Source: Loxodes magnus
Taxonomy: Eukaryota > Ciliophora > Karyorelictea > Loxodida > Loxodidae
NCBI GenBank assembly: GCA_946699065.1
Contig: CAMPDV010002366.1
Span: forward strand, 1-64,000
Direction: 5' to 3'
DNA: 64,000 nt
The first letter of the stretch is position 1, and each line of letters starts with the position of its first letter. Below the pieces are notes generated by a model that worked only from the letters and a program-made list of their open reading frames with translations, was not told the origin of the DNA and ran no database searches. This document shows, piece by piece, positions 22,244-63,600 of this stretch. Both the position numbers and the translations under genes were made by a program.

Positions 22244-25200
22244 TCAAGTTTATTGCTCTTCAGAACTAATTTTCTAGTTTAGGTTTTTTTTTTCTTCTAA
22301 GTATCTCCTTTCTTGTTCATTTTCAAACTAACTTTCATTTTTTTCTATTTTCTGTTGTCAATCTTCTTCTTCTTCATCTTCGCTATCGTTTTCCTCTTCG
22401 TTCCAATCTTCTTCTTCCTCATCATTTTTCATCTAATTTTTTTGGACATCTTATTCTTTGTTTTCTTGTTTTTATTATTCTTCATTCTCTTCATTAAAAT
22501 TTTCTATTCTTAGATTTGCTTCTTTTTATTATTTCTCGTATTGCTCTTCTTCTTTCTCTTGTTATAGAATTTCTCGCCTCCTTTTGATAAACATTTGAAT
22601 GAATATTTTTATTTATTCATCCACCATTTCTATTTTTTTCTTAGAAAAAGAGTTTATATATAGTTAATCGTAACTTATTAGTTTCAAAATATCACATTAA
22701 CCAATTTTGGAGACCAATCATTCTCTTATATCAATGTAATATATACATTCCATTACATGTTGGAGAGTGTCATATTCTCCGCATATACAAAAAGGGTTTT
22801 CAATAATATAATTTCGATCTTTCAGAGTCTTTCGAAATGCGTAAGACTGGCTTCTAATCTTATAGATGCAAATTATTTCTTTCAAATATTTTTTGTTTAA
22901 TTTTGTGTATGTTATTTTGGGGAATTATCTTAGGTTTTAAAATTGTTCTGTATATATTTATGCAGTAGGCATTCTGCTGAATCTTGAAAGAGCTAATTCA
23001 AAATATGTCTTTTATATTTATGCCTACACATATTTACTGAATTAAGTTAAGTTGTTATTGTGCTCTTTATTATCAATTTCTATTTTATAAAATGAGGCCA
23101 GTTTCTAAACTTCATCATAATATTGATATCCCTCTTTATAATTGTTCTCAAACAATATTCCAATAGATGATTAAGGTTGATTTTAGCTTTCATTTCTAAT
23201 CTTAAAGAAAAACCTGAAATACTTAAGAGCCATCATGTGTTTGAATGGCATCCAGTTGAGGTCTACAAAGCATGATTCATTAAACGTATTTCCTGCTGAT
23301 TAAAAGGCTTTTCTGGCTATTAACCTCATGCTCTTTTCAATTCTGTTCAAGATTCCATTTATTCCATACTGAACAGTCCAAGGTATTAAGTCCCCACCGT
23401 ATTCTGCTTTAGGAAGCGTGAACAGTCTACAAAGCATTTTGAAGTTTCAAGGTGTTACGTTTCTATATCTTGATAATGCAAATACTGCCTTTTTAATTGC
23501 TGAAAGATAGTTTGCAGCAACGTATTTGCAATGGTTAATTAGATTCTTCTTTTGGTGAAGGATCACCCCTAAATATGTGACTTGCTGTTTCTAAATTATT
23601 GCTTGGTCTCCTATTTTTAAGTCTAGTTTTGTTTCTTTGCTTTTCTTTTTTAAAAACTATATCGTTTCGCATTTGGAGACATTTATTTTAAGAAATGTCT
23701 AATTGAAAATGGAGTTTGCTTCATTAATAAGTGACTACATATTTTTTTATGAGTTCGATAATAGGATTAAATCGTCAGCTCAACCTCTACAAGTGAACCT
23801 ATTCTTAAAATTAGCACATCTGAATCCTAATATTTCTCCTTTGTTTTCTATATGTCTAATGACAATGTCATAGTATAATAATGCAAGCACAGGTCCATGC
23901 GAACTTCCTTACATCACTCCATTGCTAAATTTCAATTTCTTAGAATTTGCTCCGTCTATAATAAAGGAAGTAGTTAAGTTATTATAAAATGATTCTAAAG
24001 CCAAGATGAGACCTAGTGGTAATTTGACTCTTCTTAGTTATTTAAAAAGAATTCTTCTTTCAATAGAATCAAACATTTTCTCTACGTCAATTAAAGTTGC
24101 AATCAATTTAGTTTTTCCTTTCGCTTGTTTTCGATAAAGATCTATGATTTATTGGATCACTCATATTTATTAGGTCGTTTATTTGTTCTTCATAAACCCC
24201 ATTTAGCTTGAGTGGATTAACTGTCTTTCATAAATTATTGAGTAGAGTCTCTTCGTAAGGGCCTTATCATATAATTTCAAAATAGTATTGATAAGGGAAA
24301 TAGGGCGTCAGTTTTTTCAATCGTCTTTACTTCCTTTTTTGAAAATGGGGATTATGATAGAAGTATTAAGCTCTTCAGGAATCCTTCCAATTCTAAGCAT
24401 GTTATTTATAAAAGAATGAAGCATCAACGCTAGATAATATCCTGCATATTTTAGCAGTTCTCCTTTTATTCCATCTGGCCCTGCTGCTTTACCATTAGGA
24501 ATTAGACTTATAAGTTAGGTAATCTCTTCTATTGTAAAAGGATCGAAATTTTATAAGTAAGAAAAGGGTTCATTTTGAATTTCTATGTTATTTTCATAAA
24601 TTGCATCTATTTTCTAGTTACTTAGTTCAATCTATTGGTTAGTTAAATTCGAATGCTTGCTAAATACCTAATTTTCCCATGCTTCTACAAATTAGTCCTT
24701 CAATTCCTTATTAAAATTCATCAAATTTCTTTGTCTAGGGTTAAGTATTTTCTTTGCTTAAGAAAACATATCTTTTGTGGTTTCATTGAGGAGTAGGAAT
24801 CTGTTTTTGGCCTTTTGTTTTTTAAATTTTCATAAATGATGCTAAAAGCTTTTTCATAATGTGTTCGCTCTTTAGTGAAGATCAATGATTTCTTAGTTAT
24901 TCCTCCCTATATATGCTAAAGTTTCTTTGTACAATTAATTTGCTCTCTTTGCTTCGATATATTTTTATGTGAGGTCCTTAGGAAGTCTATTATACTTCGG
25001 GTCTGGGATAAATGAGCCTAAAACTTAATCTGCATTGTTCTAAATGCAGTCTCTAATATAAGTGTATTAATCTTCTAAGTTATCTCTATCAATTAGGAAG
25101 AATACTTCTACTTAATCTTTGAATGAATTCTAATAGATAAATCTATCAATAGGATCCTACAGTCTACTTATTTTGTACTTTCTCACTTTTATTTTTTCAG

Positions 25201-28200
25201 TTTGAAGATGAGTATGGTATACAAATTCAACTGTGAATGGAATATGATCTGAAAATAAGCTATAATTATGAACCTGAAAATTTCTAAATTAATTCATATT
25301 CAAGTGATTACTGATGACAATATAATCGTTGCAATACATATTTTTATTCCCTTTATGTAAACATGTGTTCATATTTGCATCGTTTATTATTTCTAAATCG
25401 TTTTAGAGAATGAATTCTTAGAATCTATTTGTATTGTCATAGTTGTTAATAGGGTTATCCCCAAAGTCTTATAGTAGAGCGTTAAAATCTCCTAATAATA
25501 TATGTGAGTTGTCAGGAAAAGAATTAAGGAATACATTTATATATTCATATGCTTCGTCTTTTATATTTTCACTCTTGCTGTTATCTGGCATGTAACAAGA
25601 TGTTATGAATATATTATCAAGTTTGATTGTAACGAACCTCTCTTGAGCTAATTGTTATATGCTATTCTATTCCGTGCTATTAAGTTAATCTCTAACAATT
25701 AAGCAAACTCCTCCTCCTTTTCCTGAGTTCTTGAAATAGGTCCTATATCCATTAATAAGTATTGGAGGATAGTCTTATTTTTATCACGTTTCATTAATTG
25801 AGAAAATGTCTAAGTCATTATTTCGTATAAATTCTTCCACGTTTAATTGCTTGCTTCCAATTCCATTTATGTTAATATGTCCAAGCTTTATTATGCCTAT
25901 CTCTCTTTGCTTATCGATTGGCATCTTTATTTCTTAATTCCCAAATTCTTGTTTGCATTAATATGGTTATTCTACATTGTTCTCTACACCTCCTTTGAGT
26001 CTTAGTTATTTTTAAAGGACAATATAGTTAATTCTAAAATCGGTTTATAGCAGCGTTTTAACTATATAATTTCCGTTTTTTATAAATCGATGAATTTCTT
26101 ATGATGAAGTCAAAACTCCTCCTTTTATTCCTGGCTCATAAATACAGAGAATCTTCTCATTTTGATGAATTTATATGTTAAGCAATTTGGGGCAATTTTT
26201 GATATATTACCTGTAACTTATTATAATGAATAATGTTAATGAATCGTACTTTTCGCTCAATTTATTATCGATTTTTATATTTATTTCATTTCCATCACAC
26301 GTAGCATGGTTTAATTTGCAAGATAAAGTTATAAATCTATTGCCTACTAAAGTGAAAAGATTCTAATTTCATCATTTATTGGACCTTATAAATTGAATTA
26401 GTTAGGCGTCTTTAAATTCGTATTTATTTAAAATCTCTTCAATATTTACTTCATTAAACCCAAATTTTGACTATTTTAAGTTTAAAGTGTCTTGGTTAAA
26501 TTTGGCATCTCTTCAACTTCTCTTTCCAAATTTTGTTTGGCTATCCCAATTCATCACATATGATGTCTAGATATTTGAATTTTCTAAAATTTCAATCTGC
26601 TAATCTTCTTAAATTTAATCAATTAAAATTGTTTATGTTGTAGCGTTTCATTTTATTTCTTTCAAGTAAGATTGAGTTTTAACATCTTATTATTTTCTCT
26701 ATATTTCTGAAATTTATGCATAAACATTTAGCTTCAATTCTACTTGATGCTCATAATCCTGCATGAGTTAAACATATAATCCGTTTAATTCATTATATTA
26801 CTCTTACAGTTTTCCATTATTCTATTTTGTGATTTATAGTTCTTGTTAAGAAGCAACTAGCTAATGATCGGTAACTACTGTTATTGTTCCTTCATCCTTA
26901 GCCTTGATAGAATTTTAAGTTTAAATAACCTAATTCTTTAACTCCATGATTCTTGTCTAACTATAATTGCTTATTAATTTCCCTTTTTCTGTTCATGTTC
27001 AAGCATCTTTGCTATTAATTTTTAAACAGGTTTGTGTTTCCTTTTCTCAAAACTATTTTTATTAACACGAGACAAGCCTTTAGTAGACACTCTATATATC
27101 TTAATTGATAAATTATTTGTTTAATTTATCATATAAATTCTACAACTTTGTATACTTCAATTCAACGAAGTCGCACTAGGTAGATTGATCTAAGAATAAT
27201 AAGTCTGTACCAGTAGTTGAATCTAAAGTCGATATAGTTTCTTGAGAAATTTAGTTGCTGAATTGAATTTCAATTTATGTTTATTCATTCTATGCCTGAG
27301 GAGTGATTGTTTATGTAAAAAGGCTTTTGACTGATTTGGCATATTTATTTTTTTGAAAGCTCAGTTCCTATGATATTTAATAATTCTCATTTTGTAATAA
27401 TTAACATTAAGCCTGTTGTTACTGGCAATTGACTGTGAGTGAATGTACCTTTTAGTCAATCTGATCTATTTTGCTTAATAAATGAAAATTTTAACCTTTG
27501 AGATTTTAGTTAAGAGTTTCTACCTCCCTAAGATGTTATTATACTTCATTATGTCTCAAATTACATTTACTCAATTCAGCTTGAATGAATTAAATTTGAG
27601 TAACCAAGTTGTTTATAATATTTTGGGCTTCTTACTTGGAAGCAAGTATTGCCTCATCTTGTAGTTTAAATGATTGTGTCATGTTCATTAGCTCCTCACT
27701 AAGCATAGCTTGTTTTACTATACTTTCCTATTAAGTCTAAGTGAGAAGTTAACTCTAAGTTTCCAATTCTTATATTTAAGTTAAGGAAAGATCAGTATTC
27801 GTTTATATTGATTATTATTTATTTGTAGCATTATTTACAAATTATTTGGACTAAAGCATTAACTATTTCTACTAATTATCAAACCTTAAGATTTAATTTT
27901 TATTCTAGATTTTCTTAATTTACTTTTGAGCTTTAAATAAATAATTTTGGTATTATTCTAAGTGTATTTTATATTGTGATTTAATGTTTAAAGTTTCTTT
28001 ATTGTGTTACTCATATATATGTATTAGCTTTTCTTACAGAGAATTATTTTTAGTTATGAGTTTTTAAATTCGAAATTTAAGATTTTTGCTTTCACTTAGC
28101 CTTTAATTTTCAAAAGTATTTGCCTCTTCTATCTTGCTTTAAATTTTATATTTTAATTTTGCAATTTTTTCTTAAAGTTACGCATTTTAAATCTCAAGAT

Positions 28201-28762
28201 CAGTTAAGTATGTAATATCAAACTTCTCTTAGTAATCAGTTTAAATGTCTATTGAAATCTGCTATTGAATTTTAATGTTATTTTTTGTATTGAATTGTTG
28301 AATTTTTATAGTCTCTTATTAATTTTGTATTTAAATTTAATTTTAGTTTTTAATTAAAGAAATATCTTAAATATCCTAAGTATCTAAAGTATCTTACTGT
28401 ATATTGGATATTTTAGATACCATCGTAGAGGTTGAAGTAACAAGCTAGTCTTTTTACCTATAAGTATATTTCCTATATTTGAGATTAGTCTTCAATTAAT
28501 GTCCACGTTTTAAAGAATTGCCAAGCTGTCTTAGTGGAATTCGAAGATATCTATTAATTTGGCATTAACTGCAGCTCTTTAGCAAATTTCTTAGTAATTT
28601 CATGATATTATCAACGGATTTAAGTTGCAGCGATTCCATGTCTATTTCATAAAAGTAGTTGAGCATCTGCCTATGTTCATCGTTTTAGAAAGCAGCTTCT
28701 TTATTTTTAGATAAAGAAGAGTCGCTAAGAAAGAAATCTTGCGAATTTTTGTGCATGTCCAT
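22244..28762 (-). CDS. Retrotransposon polyprotein: coiled coil, endonuclease, RT
   Basis: One uninterrupted frame of 2,173 codons from ATG 28762-28760 to TGA 22246-22244 (6,519 nt, an exact multiple of three). Order: Gln-rich coiled coil (residues about 1-750), a linker, AP-type endonuclease (NETW near 25785; LGDFNA near 25485; SDHIPF near 25250), reverse transcriptase (GKAAGPDGIKGE near 24490; DWKNWRPISL near 24310; FDSIERR near 24050; ADDLIL near 23775), a C-terminal zinc finger (CICGEYDTLQHVMEC near 22800) and an acidic Glu/Asp tail. Standard code would break it hundreds of times; with TGA as Trp it is intact. The Trp TGAs in NETW, KNWRP and GWADD sit at conserved or acceptable positions. 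It presumably nicks target DNA and copies its own RNA. One fused ORF is unusual, because most LINEs with this layout use two. Confidence 0.88.
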
Positions 28763-30529: not shown

Positions 30530-33122
<2,593 letters not shown>

Positions 33123-33143
33123 AGTAAGTTTTTCAATTTCTAT

Positions 33144-33432
33144 AAAAAAGTTTTTGCGCCTTAAATTCCTTGCCTATTGCGCGTCCCTACTCTCTTTTTT
33201 TATGGAATAACGTATGTATCCTTTTTTTCTCTAGTAACAGATTTTTTTTCCATCTCTATGAGCAGCCAGGCTGTAAGCCCCTACCAAGAACGATAATCTT
33301 AAGACAGTGTTACCTTCTGAAAATGATTCTGACCTTGAACTTTCTCGGCGACATAACACGAACTTGTTCCTAGCAATAAAACCTTAAAGTGTTTTCAAGA
33401 GGATCATTCTCAGCTCTCGCCATCTTTTCAAT
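33144..33432 (-). repeat. SINE-like repeat family D, copy 1
   Basis: About 290 bp, clearly more G+C-rich than its surroundings and matching 44472-44766 in the same orientation. Shared blocks include TATGGAATAACG, GAGCAGCCAGGCT, CCCCTACCAAGA and GAACTTGTTCCTAGC. It lies 20 bp past the broken ARF exon. Strand is set by copy 2, whose A/T tail lies on the side that is 3' on the minus strand. Confidence 0.75.
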
Positions 33433-33439
33433 TATTTAT

Positions 33440-34720
33440 TGGAAGTAATGTGTTATTATTCTTAGTATCTTTGTACATATAAGATTGAGATTTGAATTTT
33501 TTTTTGCTCTTTTTTAAAATTCTTATCGTATTTCTTTCTTTTCACTTTTCTTTTTTTTAATTTCATTTGTTTTTATTTAGTTTAAGTTTATTATTTTAAT
33601 TTTTTTCTGTTTTTATGTTTTTTTAATATTTAATTTTTTTTTCTTGCATTTTTTATTAAATGATTTTACTTAAAATTTTTTAATTTTTTTGTTTTTCTTT
33701 AAGAGATGAAATATTTTATAGAATATATTTTGTTTTATTCTAAAGAAATTTTTTTTTTTTATTTTAGATTTTTTTAATTTAAATAATTTTATAAATATAG
33801 ACAATTTAAATATGTTCAAGATTTTATACATGTTTTTAAAAATTTAATTATTTTTTCCTGTTTTTACCAGAATTTTATTTTAACTATTTTAGTTTGATCA
33901 ATTAATGACGAAATTAGTTTTTTTTAATGATCAATTTCATCAATAGTCATAGGTTGAATTTTAAAACTGGTCAGATTTTAAAGCTTTAGACACTATCTTA
34001 GTAATTTGTATCAATCAGAATTATTGAAGAACGCTTCTTTAGGATTTAATTAAATTTATCTTTTATCAGCTTTTTCATCTTTTTGATTTCAAGTTTTTAA
34101 GATCATTTTAAAATTTGTTGATCTTAGATTGAATCATCAAGCTGAATCAAGAATATAAATTTGATAGTCTGATTGATAATTACCTTTAAATAATATGCAA
34201 ATCTTAATAATTCAGAAAACATAACTTTTATGAATTTTAGTTTTTTTCTTTTAATTTATAAAATATTTTTCATTAAATTTGATAATATGTTTTTTTGTTT
34301 AAATCTTATAAGCTATGGGTTTTGTAACATTTTTAGTAAAGGATTTAATTTTTTTTTCGTAAATCTTTAAAAATTTAATACCTATTTAATTACTATTGAT
34401 GATTTTCATTTCTTTAGATATGGAAAAATTAATAATTAAAACTTAATTAAATTGAAAAAATATTTAGATATTACATATTGAGAACCTATTTTACTTCTTT
34501 TTCAATCTAAACTAATTTTTTAAATCACAATCTGTATAATTTTTTGTATGCTACTTATAAATTAATATTTCTTCAATTAAAGTAATTCTTTCTGCTTTAA
34601 TATATATTAAAATTTCATAGAACTAAAAAATCAATTACTTAATTTAGTCTCATTAAATTAAGCATAGAAATACTTTTTATATAATTATTATTTTAAAATT
34701 TAAGGTGATTTTATTTATAT
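33440..34720. other. T-rich stretch, no gene recognised
   Basis: Long T-runs, then A/T-rich sequence. No C-terminal ARF exon (NKQD or similar) was found, nor any other motif. Confidence 0.35.
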
Positions 34721-40042: not shown

Positions 40043-40900
40043 ATGAAAAATGTTTGCATCATCTTTTTAGCTTTCTAGATAAAATTTATTAGATTTTTTT
40101 AACGAAATTATTAAAATCAGAGGAAAGGGAAAGATAATTTGAAATTGTTTAGCATGATAAAAGAAAATAATGAGATAAAGTTAGATTTCAGGAATAAAAG
40201 TGATTTATTGTGCCCTCTAATGGATAAAAATGAATAGAAATACTTAGTTATATAACTACCTGACTATTTTCAATCTTATATCACATTCACTTTTATTTAA
40301 TATATTAATAATACATATACATTATTCTTATTAGATAGTGCATAAGAAAAACATTCATTTGCTTAAAATTATAAATAATAGATTGAACTAATTATTACCC
40401 TTATTAATAATAAAGACATAAAATAAATTATGCTAAGTGATGAATAATTAATTGTTTAAAAATGAATTTCACATTTCTGAATCTAGCCATTCTAAAAGTA
40501 CATAAATTAAGTTAAATATGATTGATGATTAATTTGAAATGCTTGAAAAATAAACTATAGCCGTCTATTAGCTCTTAACTGTTTCTTAATGAAATTAACG
40601 GAAATATTATAAGATTAGTTTCAGCAAACATGAACCATCATATGTCAAGAATGTAATAAAAGGTAATAGCAAACTTTAACTAAAATAAAATAATTTTATT
40701 ACTACTAAATAAGAGAAAAAATTTGATGAAGGGAAATATTAAGATAGTTACTAGATAGCTTTAAAATAATCGATGATTATTTTATCTATCTAAAATCAAA
40801 TATTTAACTACAAGAATAAAATTAATTTATATTTGTTAGGATTCGTTTAAAATAAAATTAACTAATATTTCATAATTTAAATAATTTATAATAATAAATA
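40043..40900 (+). CDS. Unrecognised, possibly secreted protein
   Basis: ATG 40043 opens a possible signal peptide (MKNVCIIFLAFQIKF). About 140 codons of good composition follow (LDFRNKSDLLCPLMDKNEQK, QLPDYFQSYITFTFIQYINN, LLDSAQEKHSFAQNYKQQIE). At the A-run near 40460 one base seems missing; the next frame continues well (NEFHISESSHSKS, LEKQTIAVYQLLTVSQW, FDEGKYQDSYQIALKQS). No TGA closes it before the zinc-knuckle element that starts at about 40930, so the 3' end may be cut off by that insertion. No family recognised. Confidence 0.55.
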
Positions 40901-40933
40901 AATATATAAATAAAAGCAAAAAAATTAAAAAAA

Positions 40934-41514
40934 ATGGAGAAGAACATTCGTCTTTTAAGAAATAACAAAGAAAAACAAGAAAACAAGGGACGAACGAGGA
41001 GCTAAAAAAGCAAAGACAGGATAGAGAATCTAGCTCGTCTTTAGAGGGAAAATTAATGGTTGGTCCGAATGAACAATAAAACCCTGAAACCAAAAATAAC
41101 AATTTACTCCAAAGCGAAATCGAAAAAATGAAAGCAAAAATTGCAAAATATGAAGAAATATTTTTTAATCAAGGAGAAAAAATCCGGGAGCTAATGAATT
41201 ACATAGAAGACTAAAATAACGAACTGCTAATTCTCAAAAGTTAACTGATTAAAAACTAAGTAGTAGCAGAAAATTAACTTTATGAAATATCGTAAACTAA
41301 CTTCAATTAATCACAAAGAATGATTATAGAAGAAGATTAGCACAAAATACAACATTAAGAAAAGTAAAATTAAGAAAAAAATGATACAAGCATAAACAAA
41401 AGAATTGAGATGCTGGAGAAAAAAGTTTTTTAAAAATAGAAATTAGAAAAACGATATAAAAATTGTTGGTACTGCTAATCTTGGTATCATTTACTAAGAC
41501 ATTGTAAGGAATGA
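40934..41514 (+). CDS. Short-element coiled-coil/CCHC protein, copy a
   Basis: ORF1-like protein of a short element. From ATG 40934 (MEKNIRLLRNNKEK) one base seems missing in the A-run near 41004. Thereafter the frame reads ESSSSLEGKLMVG, then a coiled coil (KIRELMNYIEDQNNELLILK) and a zinc knuckle C-x2-C-x4-H-x4-C (CWYCQSWYHLLRHC) just before TGA 41512-41514. Trp is TGG here where copies b and c have TGA. The conserved 3' module follows at 41620-41725. No reverse transcriptase lies in the element. Presumed RNA-binding Gag-like role is inference. Confidence 0.72.
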
Positions 41515-41725: not shown

Positions 41726-41759
41726 TTTAATTTTACATTTAGTTAAAATAATAATATTA

Positions 41760-42075
41760 ATAATATATAAATAAAAATGATTATAGAGCACGTAGCATCT
41801 CATTGGTGCGCAGCTCTTTAATAAAGATTTTTAAAGTTAAAAATTTCTTGCTTAAATCTTTCACATTGCTAGTATTTACTTGTGAATTTGTCTTCTATAG
41901 GGCCGTGATCGGAATGCTATTCTAAGAGACCTTAGTATCTGGCGTCTTTAATCATTAATGCTACTTGATGCCTCTTCGATCTTGTCTTCTCTTGTCTTAG
42001 CTGGTTCTTCACCTATGGGTACTTCCTGGTACTTGTGTTAAGTTAATTTCAGTTAGAGAATCGCTTCTCCCCATT
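41760..42075 (-). repeat. SINE-like repeat family B, copy 1
   Basis: About 260-bp body related to 63279-63530 (shared blocks AGATACTAAG, TCTCTTA and CTATAGAAGACAA), ending at its 3' side with the shared hairpin at 41786-41816 (GAGC...GCTC) and a TTTATTTATAT tail. Confidence 0.75.
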
Positions 42076-43319: not shown

Positions 43320-43795
43320 AAAACCGCCATAGTTGTTCGAAGGTGAACAACAAGGTCGTCTTCATCAGAGGTTGGGGAAGTTAAGTACCCATAATCGACT
43401 TTATGTCTTCCTCTGCTTTGGTTTGGCCTCGAGACATAAGATCCTTAGACCTTCGGCACTGACATAATTTAAATTTAATTTAATTCTGGAACTAAAAAGA
43501 AATAATATTGCGAGCTTCATCAGAGGTGGGGAATTTAAGTACCCATAATTGACACATGTCGTCCTCTGCTTTGGTGATGCAATGAGACGCAAATCTGCCA
43601 TGTCCTTGGACCTCCAGCAAGTATTAAAGATTACGAGTATTCTAAAATTATATCAGTATTGAACAAGGTTATCAGTATCTGATAATTTTATCAGTAAGAA
43701 GCATTCTTGTCAGTATGAAACATTTTTTTAAAGAGATGCGCACCAACGAGAGTGTTACGCGCTCTATAATCAAATTTATTTATTTATTTATTTAT
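43320..43795 (+). repeat. SINE-like repeat family A, copy 1
   Basis: Body about 410 bp, nearly identical to the reverse complement of 46948-47361. It contains an internal direct duplication: CATCAGAGGTTGGGGAAG...GGGTAC...CCTCTGCTTTGG recurs at about 43507-43575. The 3' end is the shared hairpin at 43733-43764, followed by repeated TTTA. No convincing protein frame. Confidence 0.8.
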
Positions 43796-44173
43796 ATAGA
43801 AAAATAGAATTCCCGAAACAACTAAAATTAATTTTCTTAAGATTAAAAATTTATAACTGATCACAAAAATAATTTTATAAATCGAGACATAACTTAATTT
43901 GTTATAAGTTGACCTTGAAAAACTTGAATTTAAATTATAAAAATATATAAAAAAAATAGATATAGAAACAATTAGATTTTTATTTTGTTTTCTCATTTAT
44001 CATTATTTGAATTTTAATACTTCTTTGAGAATTAAGAAAAGTTAAATGATTTGAATTAATTAAAAAGAAACAATGCAAATGAAAAAGTAAGATTATTGAA
44101 TGCAGATATTTTCCTAGTTTAAACTTTAAAATCTAAATAACTTATTTAGTTCTTGATTAAGTTTAAAATAAAA

Positions 44174-44424: not shown

Positions 44425-44766
44425 CTTTAATTTAATTTAATTTAATTTAATTAATTAATTAATTTCAACTAAAAAAGTTTTTGGACCAGAAATTCCTTTC
44501 CGATTGCACGACCCGACGCTCTCTTTTTATGGAATAACGGGGATATCCTGTTGTGCTCCAGGCACAGCTACTAGGGAGCTCCATCGCTATGAGCAGCCAG
44601 GCTTCAAGCCCCTACCAAGAGCGTATAATCTCAAAGACAGTGTTCCCTTCAGAAAATGACTCTGACCAGGGACTTTCTCAGCGACAGGACACGAACTTGT
44701 TCCTAGCCATAAAACCAGAAAGTGTTGTCACGAAGGCCATTCTCAGCTCCCACCATCTTTTCAATT
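44425..44766 (-). repeat. SINE-like repeat family D, copy 2
   Basis: Body 44472-44766 matches 33144-33432. On the minus strand it ends with an A/T tail (AATTAATTAATT, then AAATTAAATT) at 44425-44470. Unlike families A-C it lacks the shared hairpin. The palindromic GGCTTGAAGCC lies inside. Confidence 0.75.
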
Positions 44767-44769
44767 TTT

Positions 44770-46470
44770 CATTTTATATATTATATCTTACCTAAATATG
44801 TTTAACTTTTTTCTTCTTTAATTAAATTTAGATAATTTTAAATTTAAATCAAAATGATTGTAAATCATAAAAGAAAGAAATCAAAAAAGATAATTTTTGA
44901 TGAATATTTTTGTTATAATTAAGTGAAATTAAAAGATTTAATTAAGGTTTAATATTTCATTATAAGTTTTAAATTTCCTTTTTATTTTAATTTTAAAATT
45001 GAAACATGATTACTTAAAGGAAAAATATAGCACTCTAATAGATTTTCTTAAATGAATTAACTAAAAATTTCTATATTGCTTTAAAACATACTTTTCATGA
45101 AAATTCATTAAATAAGTCATTTTATATTTGATAATAAAACTGAAGAAGTCATAAAAGCAACTACTATAAATACCATTTCAATTTCAATTTTATTGGAATA
45201 AACAGTTAATATACTATAAAAATAATAGGTAAAATAACTAAAAAAATATAATATTAATTTTAATGAGATTTTAAATATATTTCTTTTAATATAAAATTAA
45301 GCATATAAATATAATTGTTAATTTTAATAAATTAGTTTAGGTTTAATATAATTACTATTTATTTTCTTCATAAGATTTAATTACAAGATAATTAAACTTA
45401 AAAATTGTTTAATTTTTAAATTAATTTAATTTCTTTTACCTTTAAGCAAAAATTTATATGTCGTCATAGAATAAAATTTTAAATTTAAAATAAAAATTTA
45501 TTTGAATTATAATGATTCAAATAAAATCATAATGAAGAATAATATTCAATTATCATATTATAAGTATCTACTTTAATACATACATAATATTTTAAATTAA
45601 AAAATAAAATTTATTTAAAAGATAAGATTTAAAGAAAACGTTTGATAAGATAAATAGCAAAATAAGAATTTATATCTAAATTAATTATTAAAAATACTAT
45701 AAGAAATTTGCTAAATTGTTAAATGGAATTAATTCCTTTTAGTTATAAATTTATTCTTATAATTATAATTTTTTTATTTTCTTTCAAATTATCGTTAAAA
45801 AATAAAATTTTAGTTCAATATAAAAATTAAAATTATCTTAAAAATAAATTTTCATGAAAAAATCTAAGATTGAAAATAATATAACCTGTTCAAAATCAAG
45901 AATCTTAACTAATTTTTTTTCTTTATAGGTTAAGAGCTCAAAGCAAATCATAACTTAAAAGAAGAATAATTATGAATATTTTTAGGAAACTCATTAAAAA
46001 TAATTTTGAATAACTTTATTAAATAATAATAAATTGTGATTTTTTATTATATAACTCCAATAAAACAAATTACAAATTTTAATTTTTCAAAAAATGTTGT
46101 TTTATTTTCTTTATCTTTCAGATATTTAAAATTACCATAAAATAAATAACTTCAATTTTATTGATAATATATATTTTTTTATTCTTAATGTTGTGTTAAA
46201 AAAGCAAAAGTTTTATTTTAAGTAAAATCTATTAAGTTTACATTCCATTTTATATATATTACTATAATATTTTAAAAAGCTAAATGTTTTTCATAGAAAT
46301 ATTTATTTTAATTACTTTTTATTTATTTTTAGTTCTATAGACATAATAATTTCATATTATTTATCATTTTATACTTATTTTAATTTTTTAACTTAACTTT
46401 GAGGATTAAAAAATAATAAAAACTTATTTGTTTTTAAATTAAAAAAAATTAAGAATATAAATAAATAAAA
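44770..46470. other. A/T-rich stretch, no gene recognised
   Basis: Extremely A/T-rich with no recognisable motif on either strand. Lies between repeats D2 and C2. Confidence 0.45.
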
Positions 46471-46874: not shown

Positions 46875-47361
46875 TCCATTTTATATTATATAAATAATAA
46901 ATAAATTTGATTATAGAGCGCGTAGCACTCTAGTTGGTGCGCATCTCTTTAAAAAAATGTTTCATACTAACAAGAATGCTTCTTATTGATAAAATTATCA
47001 GATACTGATAAACCTTGTTCAATACTGGTATAATTTAAGAATACTCGTAATCTTTTATACTTGCTGGAGGTCCAAGGACATGGCAGGTTTGCGTCTCATT
47101 GCATCACCAAAGCAGAGGACGACATGTGTCAATTATGGGTACTTAAATTCCCCACCTCTGATGAAGCTCGCAATATTATTTCTTTTTAGTTCCAGAATTA
47201 AATTAAATTTAAATTATGCCAGTGCCGAAGGTCTAAGAATCTTATGTCTCGAGGCCAAACCAAAGCAGAGGAAGACATAAAGTCGATTATGGGTACTTAA
47301 CTTCCTCAACCTCTGATGAAGACGACCTTGTCGTTCACCTTCAAACAATTATGACGGTTTT
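46875..47361 (-). repeat. SINE-like repeat family A, copy 2
   Basis: Inverted, nearly identical partner of 43320-43795. Hairpin at 46916-46947, tail TTTATTATTTATAT at 46875-46908. Together the two copies form a widely spaced inverted repeat enclosing the tRNA-like gene, repeat D2 and repeat C2. Confidence 0.8.
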
Positions 47362-48629: not shown

Positions 48630-50650
48630 ACTAAGGATATTATTTAAAAAAGAATGAAGTATCATAGTAAGGTAATTTCCTGCATACTTCAACAATTTTC
48701 CCTTAATTCCATCTGGACCTGCCGCTTTACCATTTGGGATTTCTTTTAGAATTTCTTAAATTTCTTTCAAAGTGAAAAGTTTGATACTTTATAAACATGA
48801 TAATGGTTACCTAATAAATTCTTAATTATTTTAGTATATTTTATTTATTCTTTGGTTGCTAAAGTCAATCTATTGCTTTGTCAAGTTTAAATGCTTATTA
48901 ACCACAAATTTTCTCACGAATCAACAAAATTTTCTTATTTCTCTTGATTAAAATTAATTTTATTTCTTTGTCTAGGATTAAGAATTTTTTAGCTTGTGAA
49001 AGTATATCTTCATTATTTTCATTGAGAAGGAGTAATTTTTTATTTGCTTTATTTTTCTTAAATTATAACAGGTGGTGTTTAAAATTGTTTTCATAATTTA
49101 TTGGATTTGTTATGAAGGTTAATGACTTATTAATTAATTCTTCCAAACTAAGCGTGAGTTTCTTTATATACTTAATTAGCTCTTTTAGCTTCAATATACT
49201 TCTTTGTGAGGTCTTTTGTTAGTTTATTATATTTAGAGTCTGGAATAAATGAACCTAATATTTCATCTGCATTATCTTATATATTGTGTTTAATACATGA
49301 GTATTAATCCTCTAAATTATTCCGATCAATTTGAAAAATTTCATTATAAGTTTCAAAAATAGATTCTTAATATTTTTTTCTGTCAATAGGGTGTTAATTT
49401 TATACTTTATTTAGGTAATTATGTCCTAATAGATAATTGTGTTGAAGAGAAAGTTTACCGAAATTGGTATGTGATCAGTAAATAGTTAGTTATAATGAGC
49501 CTAGAAGTTTTCAAATTGACTAATATTCAGGTGATTGTTTATTACAATATAGTCATTGCAATACATAAAACCTGTTCCTTTATGTATGCAAGTGTTGCTG
49601 TTCATATTATTTACTATTTCAAGATCATTCTGAATAAGAAATTCCTAGAATCTGTTTGTATTATCATAGTCATTATTAGGATTATCTCCATAATCTTATA
49701 GGAAAGCATTGAAATCTCCCATTAGAATATGAGGGTTATTTGGGAATTGATTAAGTAGCAAATTAATATAGTCATATGTTTGGTCTTTTATGTTCTCATT
49801 TTTGATAATATCTGGCATGTAGCAGGACGTAATAAATATATTTTCCAGTTTGGCTGTGATAAATCGATTTTAGGATGCATCAATTATATTCGTTTCTTCA
49901 GTACTATTGAGTTCTTCTTTAATAACTAAACATACACCTCCTCCTTTTCCTAAATTTTTGTAATAAGTCCTATAACCTTATACTAATATTATGGGAAATC
50001 TTGTTTTTACCAAGTTTCATTAGTTGAAAAAATGTCAATACTATTTTCTCTTATGAATTCTTCTACTGCGTATAGTTTACTTGCTATTCCATTTTGTTGA
50101 CATGTCCAATCTTAATTTGATTGACGATACTTCTTTTTTAGTAGTTATCTTGATCTAAATTAATCTGTTTTCCTTGTCGATTTAGTTAAGAACCTCCTTT
50201 CAACCCAGGTTCATAAATTAAAATTTCTTTTTTTATCCATTGATTTCAAGATGAATCTATTTTTTTTATTCTATTTATTTTAGTCATAAAATTAAATTAT
50301 AATATATAGATATTTTTGCTATATATCTTTAATAATCTCTTATCAATATTAATTTTAACTACTTGACTGTCAATCTATCCTTCATCAAGTTCTTAGTCAA
50401 GTACAACGTATCTGTTTTAAATTATAGTTTAGAAATTAGTTATTCTTCAAAAGTTAGATAATATAAAGTCTCTTAGCTATTTTGAATTTACATTATAATG
50501 TTTTATGAAAGCCTAATTTTCCTCCATTTTATTGATATATTATTTAGTAGATGGAAAATATGGATCTGGACATTTTCTCTTTAATTAATTTATAGAATCT
50601 TATTCCAAAGAATTTGCTTGAGTGTCCTGTTTTAGATTTTATGAATGAGA
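48630..50650 (-). mobile_element. Truncated LINE copy: endonuclease and start of RT
   Basis: Relative of the element at 22140-28800. The endonuclease is well preserved (STNETWQKQDFPIIL near 50010; MGDFNAFLQDYGDNP near 49705; TDHIPISVNF near 49470). The linker and the first RT motif (NGKAAGPDGIKG near 48725) follow, and homology stops at about 48630, where the short CCHC element begins. RT core and 3' end are missing. Trp in NETW is TGG (50010-50012) where the complete element has TGA. Confidence 0.8.
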
Positions 50651-51009
50651 GTTGTTGAAAATCTAAAAATATTATTCACAGAATTTTATGGATAGAAATG
50701 TTAAATTGGAATAAATTAACTACTTTAACATTTGGCTGATAGAAATATTATTATTAATTAATTATGCTTAAATAACAAACATAATTTAATAACTATTTTA
50801 GAATTATAAGTAGTTAAATAATAGGCAGGATTAATTTAAGTAACTATTTCAAAGAGATTATGGTAAATTAATAGATTAAGTATTAAATATAAAATTCAAC
50901 TAAAAAGTAAAACTTAGTTGTTATTTGCAATAGTTAAACATTTTAAGTAATAGAAAATACTTAAATCTTAACTAATATTTATGCTTTGAATATATAAATC
51001 GTTTTATAA

Positions 51010-51380
51010 TCAATCAATTCGATTATTGAGCGCGTAGCACTCTCGTTGGTGCGCAGCTCTTTAAATTAAATTAATTTAATTTAATTTAATTTCGAAAAAT
51101 AATATTTTATGGGTCTCTCTATCTTTGCTTTCTCTTCCTACAGCACTTCCCTGTAATTTTTCATTCCAAAGCATAGGATGCAATATGCGATTACGGGTAC
51201 ATCTTTCCCCGACCTATGATGAAAAAAATTTTCTCCTGGCATTCAGATTTCTCCAGTTTTTCGAATCTTCCTTCTCTTGTTATTGGTTTCTCTTTCTCCG
51301 ATTTATCCTCCGTCCGCGTTCATTTTTTAGTTTCCTTTTTGGTCTCTAAGCAGCATCCGAAGGAAAAGGTTTTCCACTCT
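51010..51380 (-). repeat. SINE-like repeat, family A relative
   Basis: Shared hairpin at 51028-51059 (GAGCGCGTAGCACTCTCG ... GCGCAGCTC) and a body to about 51380. It holds one diverged copy of the family A internal module (CAAAGCATAGGATG...ATTACGGGTAC...CCGACCTATGATGAA). Elevated G+C. The hairpin is the best-preserved in the window. Confidence 0.68.
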
Positions 51381-57310: not shown

Positions 57311-57399
57311 ATTTTTCTCTTATAAATTCCATTTGATGTAATTCAAAGTTTGTTAATTTAAGTTCATGTTCTGTTTTGTTCTTTTTCGTTCAGTTTTTT

Positions 57400-57998
57400 T
57401 CAGGTTATGCATTTCTTTATTAAATGAAATCTTGATTTGCAGTATCAAAATTGTTTAAGTTTTTATCTTGATTATTTTTTATAAATATCTTGTTTTCTAT
57501 CTTTTCTAATCTTTTTATTATATTCTGATCTTAAATTTTGATTTATGAGATTTCTTCTTTTTTTATTTAAGTTGGAGTTTTTTCTAATTCCATTATTTGA
57601 TTATTGGGTAAGTTTGATTAAGATTATCTTCATAATTATTCTTCTGTTATTAATTGATTTTATATTAGTTATTTTCTTAAGATTGTTAATTCATTATCCT
57701 GAAAATCAATATTACTCATAAGTTCTCTTATTTATATGCTTTGGTTATATATGGTTTCTTTGTATCCGGAAATTTATTTTTTCATTTGTTCGACTTAATT
57801 TTAGAGTTTTTAATATGGGTCATTTTTTTATTCTTCTACTTATTACATTCCAACCATCACTTTACCTTTGGAAGAAGAACTAGATTCTGATGTATTCATC
57901 TACTTTTATTTTTCTTTGCTCGCCTTTCTTTTGGTTTTTCTATTTTAGTTTCTAGAAAGGCGAATCGACTATTCCGTTTTTACCATGCAATTTTCCAT
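57400..57998 (-). CDS. Short-element coiled-coil/CCHC protein, copy c
   Basis: ATG 57998-57996 (MENCMVKTEQSIRLSRNQNR) leads to ESSSSSKGKVMVG and a coiled coil (IQIRELMSNIDFQDNELTIL). One base seems missing near 57450, after which the frame gives FWYCKSRFHLIKKC and TGA 57402-57400. The first knuckle Cys is Phe. Trp is TGA. The frame break and lost Cys suggest a dead copy. Confidence 0.62.
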
Positions 57999-58009
57999 TT
58001 TTTTATATA

Positions 58010-58680
58010 TATCAAAATTCTTATAACTAAAAATTTATATCCTTATTATAATAACTTTACTATGCATTTATTAATCATAACTTATTTGATTTTTATATCA
58101 AAAGAGTCTTAATTAAATAACCTTTTTTTATAAATCCTAATAATGATAAACAAAATAATACCATTGCTTTAAAATCTACTGCTATTAATTATTCCTTTAC
58201 ACTTACATTTAATCAAACAAATGAGTTCTTTAAAGTTTTCATTATTTAAAAAATAATAAAATTAAAATATAAAAAGCATCAAATTATTTAAATTAAAGTA
58301 TTTATCTTTCTAATTTATGAGATATAATAATTAAATTGTTCACTTTCTTACTACTATTTCAATTACATTTTTTATTTATAAAGATCCACTAAATGGAAGA
58401 AAATACATACATTTTTTTTGAAGAATAAAGGAATCAAAGAAATAATTGCAAAAATTAAAATAAAACAAATAAAAAAATCTTAAACGAAATTTGACTGAAG
58501 GAATCAAATGAATAAATAAAAAAAATTAAGAATAAAAATACTTTAAAATTCTTAAATAAAAGGAAAAATGAATTAAATGCAAAACACATCTAAAGGTTAA
58601 AAAGGAAAAGCCGGAAAAAAAAACTTTTCTAAACTTACTTAAATCAGTAACTCAAAAAAAATCGACACATTTACATTCTT
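58010..58680. other. No gene recognised
   Basis: A/T-rich sequence between two minus-strand coding stretches; no motif seen. Confidence 0.3.
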
Positions 58681-59992: not shown

Positions 59993-60601
59993 ATGTCACA
60001 ATCTTTTAGGTGCCCCAAATGCTCGTATTATTTCGATTCTAAACTACGAATTCCTAAAGCTCTTCCTTGTGGACATCAAGCTTGCAAAAAATGCATTCTA
60101 GAAGAATACTTGAAAAATAGCTTTAACAAGTGTCCAAAATAATAGTGCTAATAAATTTCGATAGTTGATCCTAAAAGATCGATAGGTCATAAAGGAATTA
60201 AAAGCAAAAACTAGAAACCAAAACTAAATATCGAGTAAAGTTAAAATTAGATAGTTTATTAGCAAAAAATATTAAAAAAGCCAAAAGAAATAAAAGTTTA
60301 GATTGTAACAGAGAATAAGGAAAAAATAGATGTAATCATAGGGAAGAAAGATACAATTTAGGAACTGAAACTTAAAATATAAAAACAAGAAGGAATTGAT
60401 CCTGACTTTTATGAACTTTACAGTGGAGAAAAAAAAATAGATAAATGGTGGAATAATCTAGCATACGTTAAAGGAGATGTTTAGTTACTACTTATATTGA
60501 AGAACTGTAAGTAAATAAGACTTAAAGGATGTGAGAAACTAGATTCCTTTAGAAAGTAAAAAACTAATTAAGAAAGTACTATATAAATGAGTAGTTTTTG
60601 A
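59993..60601 (+). CDS. RING finger plus ubiquitin-like domain protein
   Basis: Intact frame of 203 codons, ATG 59993 to TGA 60599-60601. Residues about 7-52 form a RING: CPKC, then PCGHQACKKC, then CPKQQC (C3HC4-type spacing). After a Lys-rich linker, residues about 100-175 read as a ubiquitin-like fold: strands KVQIVTENKEKIDVIIGKKD, helix TIQELKLKIQKQEGIDPD, then FYELYSGEKKI and LLLILK. There is no terminal Gly-Gly, so it is not a conjugatable modifier. RING plus UBL suggests an E3 ligase that also docks on the proteasome or another ubiquitin receptor (inference). Both Trp codons are TGG. The intron-like array starts about 30 bp downstream. Confidence 0.85.
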
Positions 60602-60629
60602 ATAAATGATTTTTTGACATGGTATATAA

Positions 60630-63070
60630 AGTAATAATAGAACGAAAACTTGAAAACCAATAGGGAGGTGAAAATAGATAAATATAGAAGAAAGTACAAA
60701 ATTATAAAGAAGATAAAAAAAAATTCTTTAAAAGTAAAGAATAAATATGAAGGAAGTAATTATTAAAAAAGCATGTAATAAATTAATTATAAGTGAGTAA
60801 AAACTAAAAGATTAGAAAGTAATAGTTTAAGAATGAGAATGTAAGTATCTAATATAAAGTTTGTAAGAAAATGAATTATAAAGGAAGTAAGAATTTAAAA
60901 GAGAATGTAAGAAATAATGTAGATTGTAAATAATAAAATAAAGGTGGTAAAATAATAAATTAAGAAAGTAATTTTTGATGTACAGCTAGTATCTCTTTAA
61001 AGAAAGGAGGTAAAAAATAAGAAAAGATGGTTTTAGTTTTGATATAGAATGTAAAAATCGATTAACTATAGATGGTAAAGTGTAGCAAGAATTTATAGAA
61101 TGTGAGATATTCTAAAGATCCTAATAGTGAGTAAGTTAATTCAATTTCTATAGATGGAAAGAAATTTTAATCCTTAAAGATGGTTTGAATTTTTTAGAAC
61201 TTATAGATTGTAAGTTATGTGAATAATTATAGTTGGTAGCTAATTAAAATATTAATAGAGAGTAAGATGCAAATAATTATAGGAAGTAAAATATAGTAAT
61301 GTCTATAGTTAGTAAGTTACCTAAAACCTACACAGAAGGTAAGAATATAAATTTTTTAGGGGGCAAATAATTTAAACGTTATTTAGATTGTAAAGGTTAT
61401 AAATGATAGTTGGATAACTTATTTAAGAATTTGTTGAGAGTCATTTTTTTATATAAATAGATAGTAAATCTTCTTAAAGGTTAATTAGCAAGTGAGTTTT
61501 AAATATTTAAAGTAAGTAAGATTTTCAAAGCATTTACTGCATGTAATTTATTTTAATCTTTATAAATCTTTATATTTACAGTGGGTAAGAAAGGCTTAAT
61601 ATTTAAGGTTAAAGATATTTTAAATATTTATAGGAGGTAAAATTCGCATATAATTATAGGAATTGGTATATTTTAAGTAAATCATGATGGTTGACAATTT
61701 AATTATGCATAGGGAGTAAGTTATTTGAATCCGCTTTAATAGGCAAGATACTTAAAATATTTAAAGACTGTAAACATTTTATTTTATTTGAAGTTAGTAA
61801 GATATTTTAAATTCTTTATTCGGTAAGTTATTTGACCAGCTTTAGATCGTAACGAGATATAAATTTTAATAGAAAGTAAGATATATAAATATCTTAAGTG
61901 AGTAAATTATTTTAATAACTATAGCATGTAAGAAATTTAAATATTATAGCAAGTAAGTTGGCTTAATCATCTAATGCAGGTAAGAACTTTTGAATATTTA
62001 TAGGAGGTAAGTTGTTTAAATGTTAAAAGACAGTTGATAATTAAATATTCTAGGGAGTAAGATATAAAAATTGTAAAGGAAGTGAGTTATTTTAATTTTA
62101 TAGTTTGTTAGAATTATTAAATTAAATAGATTGTAAGTAGCTTTAAGAGTTTATAGTGGGTATTGTATTTAAATGCTTTAAGAATGTTTGAAATTAAATT
62201 TATTATAGTGAGTAAATGGCTTAAAATGACTTTAGATGATAAGATACTTTAAATATTATAGATAGTAAAATCTTAATAATTTATAGTTAATAAGAGAATT
62301 TCATTATTTTAGACCGTAAAAAGCTTAAAATATATAAGGCAGTAAGTAATTTTAAACATTTTAGAAAGTAATATATTTGAATGACTATAGTCAGCAAGAT
62401 GCCTTTAATATTTTAGATGGTAATTTAACTTTAAACTCTAAAGGCTGTTATATGTTGAAAATATTTATAGAGGGTTAATTATAAATATTTAAAGAAAGTA
62501 AGATACTATAAATATTTAATGATTGTTCATAATTTTAGAATTATAGGGGGTTAGACTATTTAATTATTAATAGATAGCAAGATTTTTTAAATACTTATAG
62601 TTGGTAAGACACTTTAAATTTATAGAGAGTAAGAAGATTTTAGTTCTTTATAGAATGTATTATTACTATCTTACTCACAGTTTGTAAATATTAAAACTGT
62701 TAAAGACGGTATTTTTAACTTATTTTTAGAAGGTATATTTTTGACTTTAGGTTTCTTTTTTATTTTCAGATTGTTAGAGTTAATTATTAGATCGTTATTC
62801 ATTATTTAAGCTTGTATTTATTTATATAAGCTTGTACTATTTAATTTAGTCAGTAATGTAATAAAGTAGAATGTATTTAATAATTATAGGGGGTAATAAC
62901 TTATTTTAAAGAAAGTAAACTCCTAAAATAAGGTAAATTTTTATTTTCAGAATGTTGCTGTGATTTTCTATTTCATTCAGATTTTTTATTATAGGATGTT
63001 ATTTACCAATTATAGGATGTAATTTAGTTTAGAAGTGAGATTTTATTATTATAGAGTGTAAATTTTGAAA
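60630..63070 (+). repeat. Array of intron-like units with 3-nt spacers
   Basis: About 90 consecutive units. Each has an acceptor-like end (commonly TATAG, TTTAG, TAAAG or TTCAG), then exactly three variable bases, then a donor-like start (commonly GTAAG, GTAAA or GTTAG). Interiors are A/T-rich and often contain TTTAAAT or TTAAT. In the middle (61800-62270) successive GT starts lie 23 to 27 bp apart, mostly 25-27; after about 62750 the units shorten to about 20 bp, yet the three-base gap remains. The triplets vary freely (AAA, TGA, CAT, CAA, GAG, ATT, TTG). The plus strand has the splice polarity. A few units miss the rule (0- or 6-base gaps, GA or GC instead of GT). Function unknown. Confidence 0.8.
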
Positions 63071-63278
63071 GCAGTCGAAACATTTAACGTTTAACTCTTA
63101 TTTAATTTTATCTATTAAATTACCTTATTGTGTAGTTTATTAATGTAACTATTAAATGCTTGTGCGTTATCTAAAAGTAAGGTAATACTCTATATTTAAT
63201 TTTAATTTCCAGTTATTGCATTTTTATTACTCTGTTCTTTTTAGTATAAGTATATGTTATTTTATTTAATAATTTATA

Positions 63279-63600
63279 GGGACCAATCCTTACAATGTGA
63301 TCAATGGAACCTCTGGTATCAACCCGTGTGAAGACCGGAACAAGAATCTTGGCAGGAGCCGAATGAGACAAGACTGAATCATCAAGTAACGATATGTTAA
63401 ACGATGTTAGATACTAAGTTCTCTTAAAGAAGCATTTCTACACAGGTTCTATAGAAGACAATCATTTTCAAAGGATGCTAGCACAGGGAAGAATGCAATG
63501 TAGTATTTTTTTAAACTTTAAAAAACTTTAGATAAAGAGATGAGTATCCACATGGTGCTACACGCTATATAATTTCATGTTTTTAATAAGAAATTTTTAA
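63279..63600 (+). repeat. SINE-like repeat family B, copy 2
   Basis: About 255-bp body related to 41820-42070 on the other strand, with the shared hairpin in a degenerate form at 63537-63569 (GAGTATCCACATGGTGCTACAC). Higher G+C than its surroundings. It follows the intron-like array. Confidence 0.72.

Follow-up and report, generated by a model that had tools for sequence, protein, structure and literature searches.

The RING-UBL gene and the array behind it

The window, a stretch of 64,000 nucleotides of Loxodes magnus DNA, carries toward its 3' end a reading frame that begins with a RING finger and a ubiquitin-like (UBL) domain (first exon, 59993..60506, + strand). Both domains were recognised by Pfam at scores below the curated cut-offs (zf-RING_UBOX, E 1.8e-5, 25.1 bits, cut-off 25.2; ubiquitin, E 3.3e-4, 20.8 bits, cut-off 25.4). 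The exon ends ...AAC T, and the first intron starts at 60,507, directly after the UBL domain, leaving one codon base upstream (phase 1). Behind it lies a tandem array of short intron-like units separated by three bases. The initial annotation placed this array at 60630..63070; it begins earlier, at 60,507, inside the RING-UBL frame, within whose 3' end array-like sites occur at 60,526 and 60,551, while its recognisable 3' end does fall at 63,018-63,070, with degenerate units continuing to 63,279.

The array start (60507..60733, +) has single-codon exons at 60528-60530, 60553-60555, and 60573-60575 and a 27-nt exon at 60595-60621, after which further short exons, with an uncertain parse and one damaged donor, extend to 60733. 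Next comes a conserved block of 15 single-codon exons (60734..61050, +), whose triplets start at 60753, 60772, 60794, 60816, 60838, 60860, 60884, 60904, 60923, 60944, 60965, 60986, 61007, 61027, and 61048; read in phase 1, they give the peptide TLKKFWKYCETRDE. The central variable part (61051..62729, +) consists of about 60 units of an intron plus one codon, 57 in one count, with introns mostly 21-25 nt long and several damaged splice sites. The 3' single-codon block (62730..63018, +), read by hand, has exon starts at 62730, 62770, 62791, 62811, 62831, 62850, 62870, 62890, 62912, 62951, 62995, and 63016. Its phase-1 peptide, ..DYPSFKWEK, runs into T|GA (62953|62995-62996), a putative stop, and a second T|GA follows in the same phase (triplets 62,951, 62,995, 63,016). 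The last degenerate units (63019..63279, +) may be a 3' untranslated region. Near the 3' end of several full-length family members (e.g., L009, L033, and the window at 62733-62769) there are also apparent zero-length exons (AG|GT), giving double introns of about 35-40 nt; these could be recursive splice sites.

Outside the gene lies a dispersed noncoding repeat (63366..63600, +) with a 69.7% match to 41757-41987 (-) and indels between the two copies that are not multiples of 3. The stretch 63,281-63,600 was rejected as a phase-1 terminal exon because it contains this repeat with its frame-breaking indels. The repeat belongs to a family with a shared tail, found at 41754-41987, 43718-43797, 46883-46962, 51006-51065, and 63366-63600.

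The three-base spacing noted in the initial annotation is real. In 60,630-63,100 (+), AG-N3-GT occurs 83 times, against 13, 9, 3, 5, 3, and 5 occurrences at gaps of 0, 1, 2, 4, 5, and 6, respectively; gap 3 is found twice on the minus strand of the same interval and 1-12 times per 2.5-kb bin in the rest of the window. An EM motif model given no prior AG or GT recovered T-TATAG-NNN-GTAAG, with information of 0.97 and 2.3 bits at the AG, 0.09/0.05/0.11 at the NNN, and 2.28 and 0.99 at the GT. A splice-like PWM derived from the window array itself scored 66 gap-3 pairs above 9 bits within the array, compared with 27 on the rest of the + strand and 27 on the - strand; at each of the remaining gaps from 0 to 8, the array has 1-7 such pairs. 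A splice-score parse of 60,480-63,420 gave 105 introns, with 84 of 104 exons exactly 3 nt long; without a 3-nt preference, 51 of 84 exons were 3 nt. Regular splice-site flanks, as first described, hold for most units, but of the 92 gaps between 93 curated window exons, 19 fall outside the class of 13-32-nt GT-AG introns: 3 have GC-AG ends, and in the rest a splice site is broken, an exon has been lost, or introns have merged. Joined together, the curated exons measure 865 nt, compared with about 3 kb of DNA. Along the array the unit length is about 20, then 26, then 20 bp, instead of 26 and then 20 bp as annotated.

We read the window with TAA/TAG as Gln and TGA as Trp, the latter as in karyorelicts. 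TGA-as-Trp falls within conserved-looking reverse-transcriptase, endonuclease, and WD40 stretches of other window genes, where the endonuclease is a Pfam match and the reverse-transcriptase and WD40 names are our own reading. For L. magnus, the available portion of PMC11441545 gives translation table 27, with context-dependent UGA. Joined, the 84 window triplets contain TGA whichever frame is read (4, 8, and 3 times), and a non-coding verdict based on this was dropped once TGA was seen to be Trp. The annotated absence of any unusable codon needs the same qualification: 4 of 84 triplets are TGA, tolerable only as TGA stands for Trp in conserved stretches.

Array introns, mostly 16-26 nt long, are compatible with the L. 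magnus length class (mean 19.3, mode 17, 93% at most 25 nt, in the available portion of PMC11441545). They have GT-AG ends and a GTAAG-like donor, with a few GC-AG and damaged sites. In the conserved block of seven paralogs, 33 of 98 introns have a length divisible by 3, which is no depletion; L. magnus introns generally are depleted of such lengths, according to the same portion of PMC11441545, in whose main text "orphan" introns receive a single mention, in a figure legend.

Paralogs and the case for single-codon exons

The array is found in a gene family. A search of the genome assembly (705,730,643 bases, 7,843 contigs) with the window RING-UBL exon gave 343 first-look candidates, and a search with the corresponding exon of L035 gave 372; 40 candidates were scored in each search and 40/40 matched. 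Among the 40 scored with the window query, 7 places including the window matched at 99.7-100% over 619-621 nt, and the other 33 at 68-71%. L009 (C4) is a second RING-UBL gene with its own array behind it, and L010 (C6) has decayed: its splice sites are broken, and sequence that is not array has been inserted into its array. Family members lie, among other places, at C59:211500-218500 and on C473 and C1538. Six more full-length members (L031-L036) were parsed. In each, the RING-UBL exon is followed by a handful of short exons and the 15 conserved single-codon exons, then by further single-codon units in varying number, and last by a 3' run with shared triplets. Introns of their variable part are mostly 23-24 nt, and codon number and order in the central part differ from the window. 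Parsing gave the 27-nt exon in L031 and L033-L036, and a second reading by hand gave it in L009 and L032. Among 28 loci, many of them copies or overlapping, the 15-codon run could be recognised in 26 (not in L010 or L022); in a second set of 30 loci, it could be recognised in 28 (not in L046 or L055). It was located by a 4-triplet signature with 3 of 4 required, so the conservation seen at these four triplets partly reflects how the run was selected. The L040 array ends abruptly behind this run.

Searches for relatives of other kinds were negative. No homolog of the window RING-UBL reading frame was found among 5.8 billion proteins, protein and PDB searches with the joined tail peptide of the window copy gave nothing significant, and the array unit has no exact match in IMG/VR. 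One joined version of the tail matched a Tetrahymena LC8 dynein light chain in the PDB (E 0.41), which we regard as chance; the match was lost with another version of the middle. A genome search for a spliced or intronless copy of the conserved block, with one 35-nt pattern and up to 3 mismatches, gave 0 matches.

Within the conserved block, all 15 exons are 3 nt long in all seven paralogs, as read by a parser that favours 3, and 12 of the 14 introns differ in length among them (127 of 294 pairwise comparisons). Triplets are 0.81 identical in the seven paralogs, compared with 0.675 for intron bodies, a modest gap in AT-rich sequence. The very short, frame-neutral exons make up the part after the UBL domain and not the 514-nt first exon. 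Across family loci, 3 of 553 exon lengths are frame-breaking, compared with 15 of 369 in two long arrays elsewhere in the genome (P=2.8e-4), with the caveat that family loci overlap or are copies and the counts are not independent. All three are in L060, where four-base exons are present; one four-base exon was parsed in L052.

Amino acid changes point to phase 1. The mean BLOSUM62 score of differing residues in this phase is 0.41 in the single-codon block (null, -0.47; P=0.006) and -0.03 in the preceding exons (null, -0.65; P=0.014). With both blocks taken jointly, 0 of 500 column permutations reached the phase-1 value, whereas phases 0 and 2 gave P=0.34 and 0.32. From 35 loci, the test drew 23 distinct strings covering the 15-codon block and 17 covering the exons before it; the strings are related, which the permutations correct incompletely. 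It omitted L010, L022, L046, and L055 (no signature found), L037-L039 (copies of L035), and L018-L021, L024-L028, L030, and L011-L017 (strings the same as kept entries). Two L040 cells were set by hand, and where the parser had cut the 27-nt exon or made it 32 nt long (L032), its final 27 nt were used. An earlier run on 7 sequences, scoring conservative changes, gave 0 of 200 permutations. In agreement with phase 1, the UBL exon can be read as ending in that phase in the window, L009, and L032, which makes the first junction T|GA. Phase 2, briefly preferred on a few synonymous-looking changes, was dropped after the donor-phase reading and the permutation test. Family peptides in phase 1 are mostly like xEIFExMRKQYE and [VA]LKK[YF]WKYxETR[DE]E, with FKW near the 3' end.

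Other measures were less telling. The pN/pS in phase 1 was 0.84, not below the permuted null (P=0.14), and substitution counts on 11 strings were not decisive. Codon-usage and codon-dependency tests on the window copy alone, which have low power, put phase 1 best but not significantly so (P=0.15 and 0.16). The 3' block did not separate the phases (-0.22 for phase 1, 0.0 for phase 2) in five loci read by hand, where the first triplet of L031 and of L035 is doubtful. By our reading, T|GA can be found at the corresponding 3' place in L031, L032, L034, and L036; it was not clearly readable in L009, L033, and L035.

Altogether, the feature is probably the 3' part of a member of a large RING-UBL family whose tail would be coded by serially spliced single-codon exons. 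That is one of the readings put forward in the initial annotation, and the paralogs lend it support through their conserved triplets, variable intron lengths, and conservative phase-1 changes. After the UBL domain, the transcript would contain about 90-100 exons, nearly all of one codon and in phase 1, separated by spliceosomal introns of mostly 16-26 nt, and would be spliced one codon at a time before translation. The first single-codon block and the last few exons are conserved across paralogs, and the middle varies by gain, loss, and change of units of an intron plus one codon, presumably through unequal exchange. Because each exchange between introns would add or remove whole codons, the mRNA frame would survive any rearrangement, and splicing would hide the repeat from the protein.

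The same joined codons would result if the 24-mers were germline segments, precisely excised during macronuclear development and cleanly removed. TATAG resembles the TAYAG ends of Paramecium internal eliminated sequences, and excision of this kind had been raised in the initial annotation. We give it almost no credence. The units are bounded by GT and AG, not by TA; the assembly, at 705.7 Mb, equals the macronuclear size of 706 Mbp and not the micronuclear 848 (PMC11441545, available portion), and the arrays are therefore still present in somatic DNA. The same portion of PMC11441545 reports no extensive elimination in L. magnus.

The variable middle and long arrays elsewhere

In the relatives, the middle of the array combines uniform introns with unlike codons. 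In L036 (C59), 39 of 46 24-nt introns are identical to GTAAGATATTTTAAATATTTATAG, and the 49 units carry 9 kinds of triplet. This same sequence is the 24-nt intron consensus in each of the seven full-length paralogs (L009 and L031-L036), from which the window copy differs. Five loci (L047, L048, L049, L052, and L054) are 99.85-99.96% identical over the 2,603 nt up to the variable part, yet share only 4-10 of 28-31 middle triplets at the same index, in a comparison made without realignment over 874 nt of variable part per locus. All five agree with a single consensus across their 24-nt introns (99.6-99.9% identity; 26 of 27 introns equal it in L047), and their exon positions are 35-46% alike pairwise. 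L048, L050, and L053 have one identical string and may be a single locus assembled more than once. Whole units can be duplicated in blocks, as in L031, where a five-codon block occurs three times, but plain duplication leaves the codon diversity between near-identical introns unexplained. Unlike codons beside uniform introns might come from selection on the introns, from a homogenising process restricted to them, or from change targeted to the triplets.

The near-identical 24-nt introns of young arrays, and the single consensus in seven paralogs, raise the question of whether the introns themselves are the product. The tiny-intron array would then act as a splicing sponge, akin to the decoy suggested in the initial annotation, or would supply small RNAs about 24 nt long. 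We think this very improbable: it predicts neither conserved codons nor a frame-neutral exon length, and leaves unexplained that introns of the 5' block and of the window have been free to diverge. Among the 56 central introns of the window copy, the intron bodies show no more similarity to one another than column-shuffled controls do (top-20 P=0.45, max P=0.87, variance P=0.05-0.09), and for this reason the window array looks like an old version, with its relatives representing the young state of the same array. It may also be partly dead, with several damaged sites. Segmental homology within the window array, another possibility considered, had no support from column shuffles.

The unit is not confined to genes of this family. 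Genome-wide, TATAG-N3-GTAAG occurs 38,581 times, compared with 8,059 for the reversed pattern. The longer TTTATAG-N3-GTAAGATATTTTAA occurs 27,815 times, compared with 108 for N4-N8 together and with reversed-pattern controls of 1 and 1; the gap-length comparison that had been proposed for the array shows a clear excess at 3 in the window and, against N4-N8, genome-wide. On C3735 (L067) and C4030 (L068), the stretches read, of 7.0 and 6.0 kb, are array throughout, and no RING match was found in either. In these long runs of the 27-bp unit, 142 of 179 (C3735) and 164 of 180 (C4030) 24-nt introns equal the consensus, and about 8 different triplets occupy the other 3 positions. The C3735 matches to N4-N8 fall between 2.6 and 12.4 kb and between 38.5 and 50.3 kb of the 51.6-kb contig. 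Pattern matches also occur on C3460, C3305, and C3879. Judged by these patterns, the unit also behaves as a satellite in long arrays, where the frame constraint is weaker, and such arrays are hard to see as coding.

The same might apply to the gene family itself. A satellite of 24-27-bp units could have invaded the 3' end of the RING-UBL family, intron-like in sequence but not spliced codon by codon; the gene would end after the UBL domain, and the array would be a 3' UTR or be removed or skipped as a block. The arrays of C3735 and C4030, which lack a RING match, and the scattered N4-N8 gaps on C3735 fit this reading, as does the first junction, which makes a TGA right after the UBL domain that could be a stop. 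Tandem repeats are also abundant in L. magnus, making up 231 Mbp of the macronuclear assembly (PMC11441545, available portion). On the other side, an invading satellite does not explain why triplets are more conserved than introns, why changes are conservative in one phase, why exon length is constant beside variable intron lengths, or why in-frame 27-nt exons occur within the array. Instead of near-identical units at all positions, the introns are uniform and the exon positions unlike. Identical triplets in related copies, named in the initial annotation as a sign of plain satellite amplification, do occur in part at the array ends, but introns there diverge more than triplets, which is the opposite of what such amplification would give. 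We regard this alternative as unlikely, although the annotated idea of an old satellite holds in part for the central unit, given its long arrays elsewhere.

Known systems and neighbouring elements

A literature search, with preprints and most subscription papers outside its scope, turned up no description of consecutive single-codon exons. Closest among known systems are the micro-exon genes (MEGs) of Schistosoma, a multigene family with exons of 3-81 bp according to the available portion of PMC10526429, where much of the coding region lies in very short exons, as would hold here for the part after the UBL domain. MEG introns, however, are long (up to 5 kbp) and the exons mixed, whereas array introns are mostly 16-26 nt and exons nearly all 3 nt. 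Also unlike MEGs, young arrays repeat a near-identical unit of intron plus codon, and genes that are otherwise nearly the same have their codons in a different order. In length range and in GTAAG...TAG signals, the array introns are like the tiny introns of ciliates (Stentor, Blepharisma, Paramecium, and Loxodes). Known ciliate tiny introns are separated by ordinary exons.

Introner elements are repeated, near-identical intron copies within one genome. Invasive intronic elements of this sort are described in Amoebophrya (PMC12005148, available portion). The array resembles them in having near-identical intron copies at many sites (the 27,815 consensus junctions) and differs in that only 3 nt separate its copies, which share one phase and lie within a single gene family. 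Coding minisatellites and diversity-generating retroelements likewise let one defined stretch of a protein vary fast among genes that are otherwise nearly identical. By comparison, the repeat of the array would be discarded as introns, and single codons would remain.

If the codons are joined, exon size would go down to a single codon over nearly 100 consecutive exons, and the spliceosome would be tested without ordinary exon context. It would also mean that a repeat is able to expand inside a gene with the frame unbroken. Exons of 3 nt are expected to escape ordinary short-read mapping. A pointed question is how introns can be identical and codons unlike in genes that are 99.85-99.96% identical upstream. 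One answer, which we put forward tentatively and with more doubt than confidence, is that the triplets are frame-proof codon cassettes: an E3-ligase-like family would diversify a protein segment as isolated codons, each insulated by an identical 24-nt intron, are shuffled and altered, either with a process confined to introns (e.g., conversion by intron-derived copies) making the introns uniform without touching the codons, or with change aimed at triplets. Either process, if true, would be a new way to make protein diversity.

Several other elements lie in the window. Two related LINE-like elements (22247-28762 and 48868-50287, both -) are 71.5% identical over 1.5 kb and carry the endonuclease (Pfam) and reverse-transcriptase-like stretches, with TGA as Trp. 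A paralogous pair of Cys-rich genes (3367-6362, -, and 15406-18360, +) probably encodes membrane proteins; their predicted tiny introns (20 nt at 3527-3508 and 23 nt at 18155-18177) resemble array units. A frame that we read as an Arf-like GTPase (32872-33440) breaks off at about 33119 beside a repeat that is 80% identical to 44461-44773. Finally, two similar short "RELM.NI" reading frames (40888-41475, +, and 57393-58013, -) possibly come from a mobile element, and a stretch similar to them is also found behind the broken array of L040.
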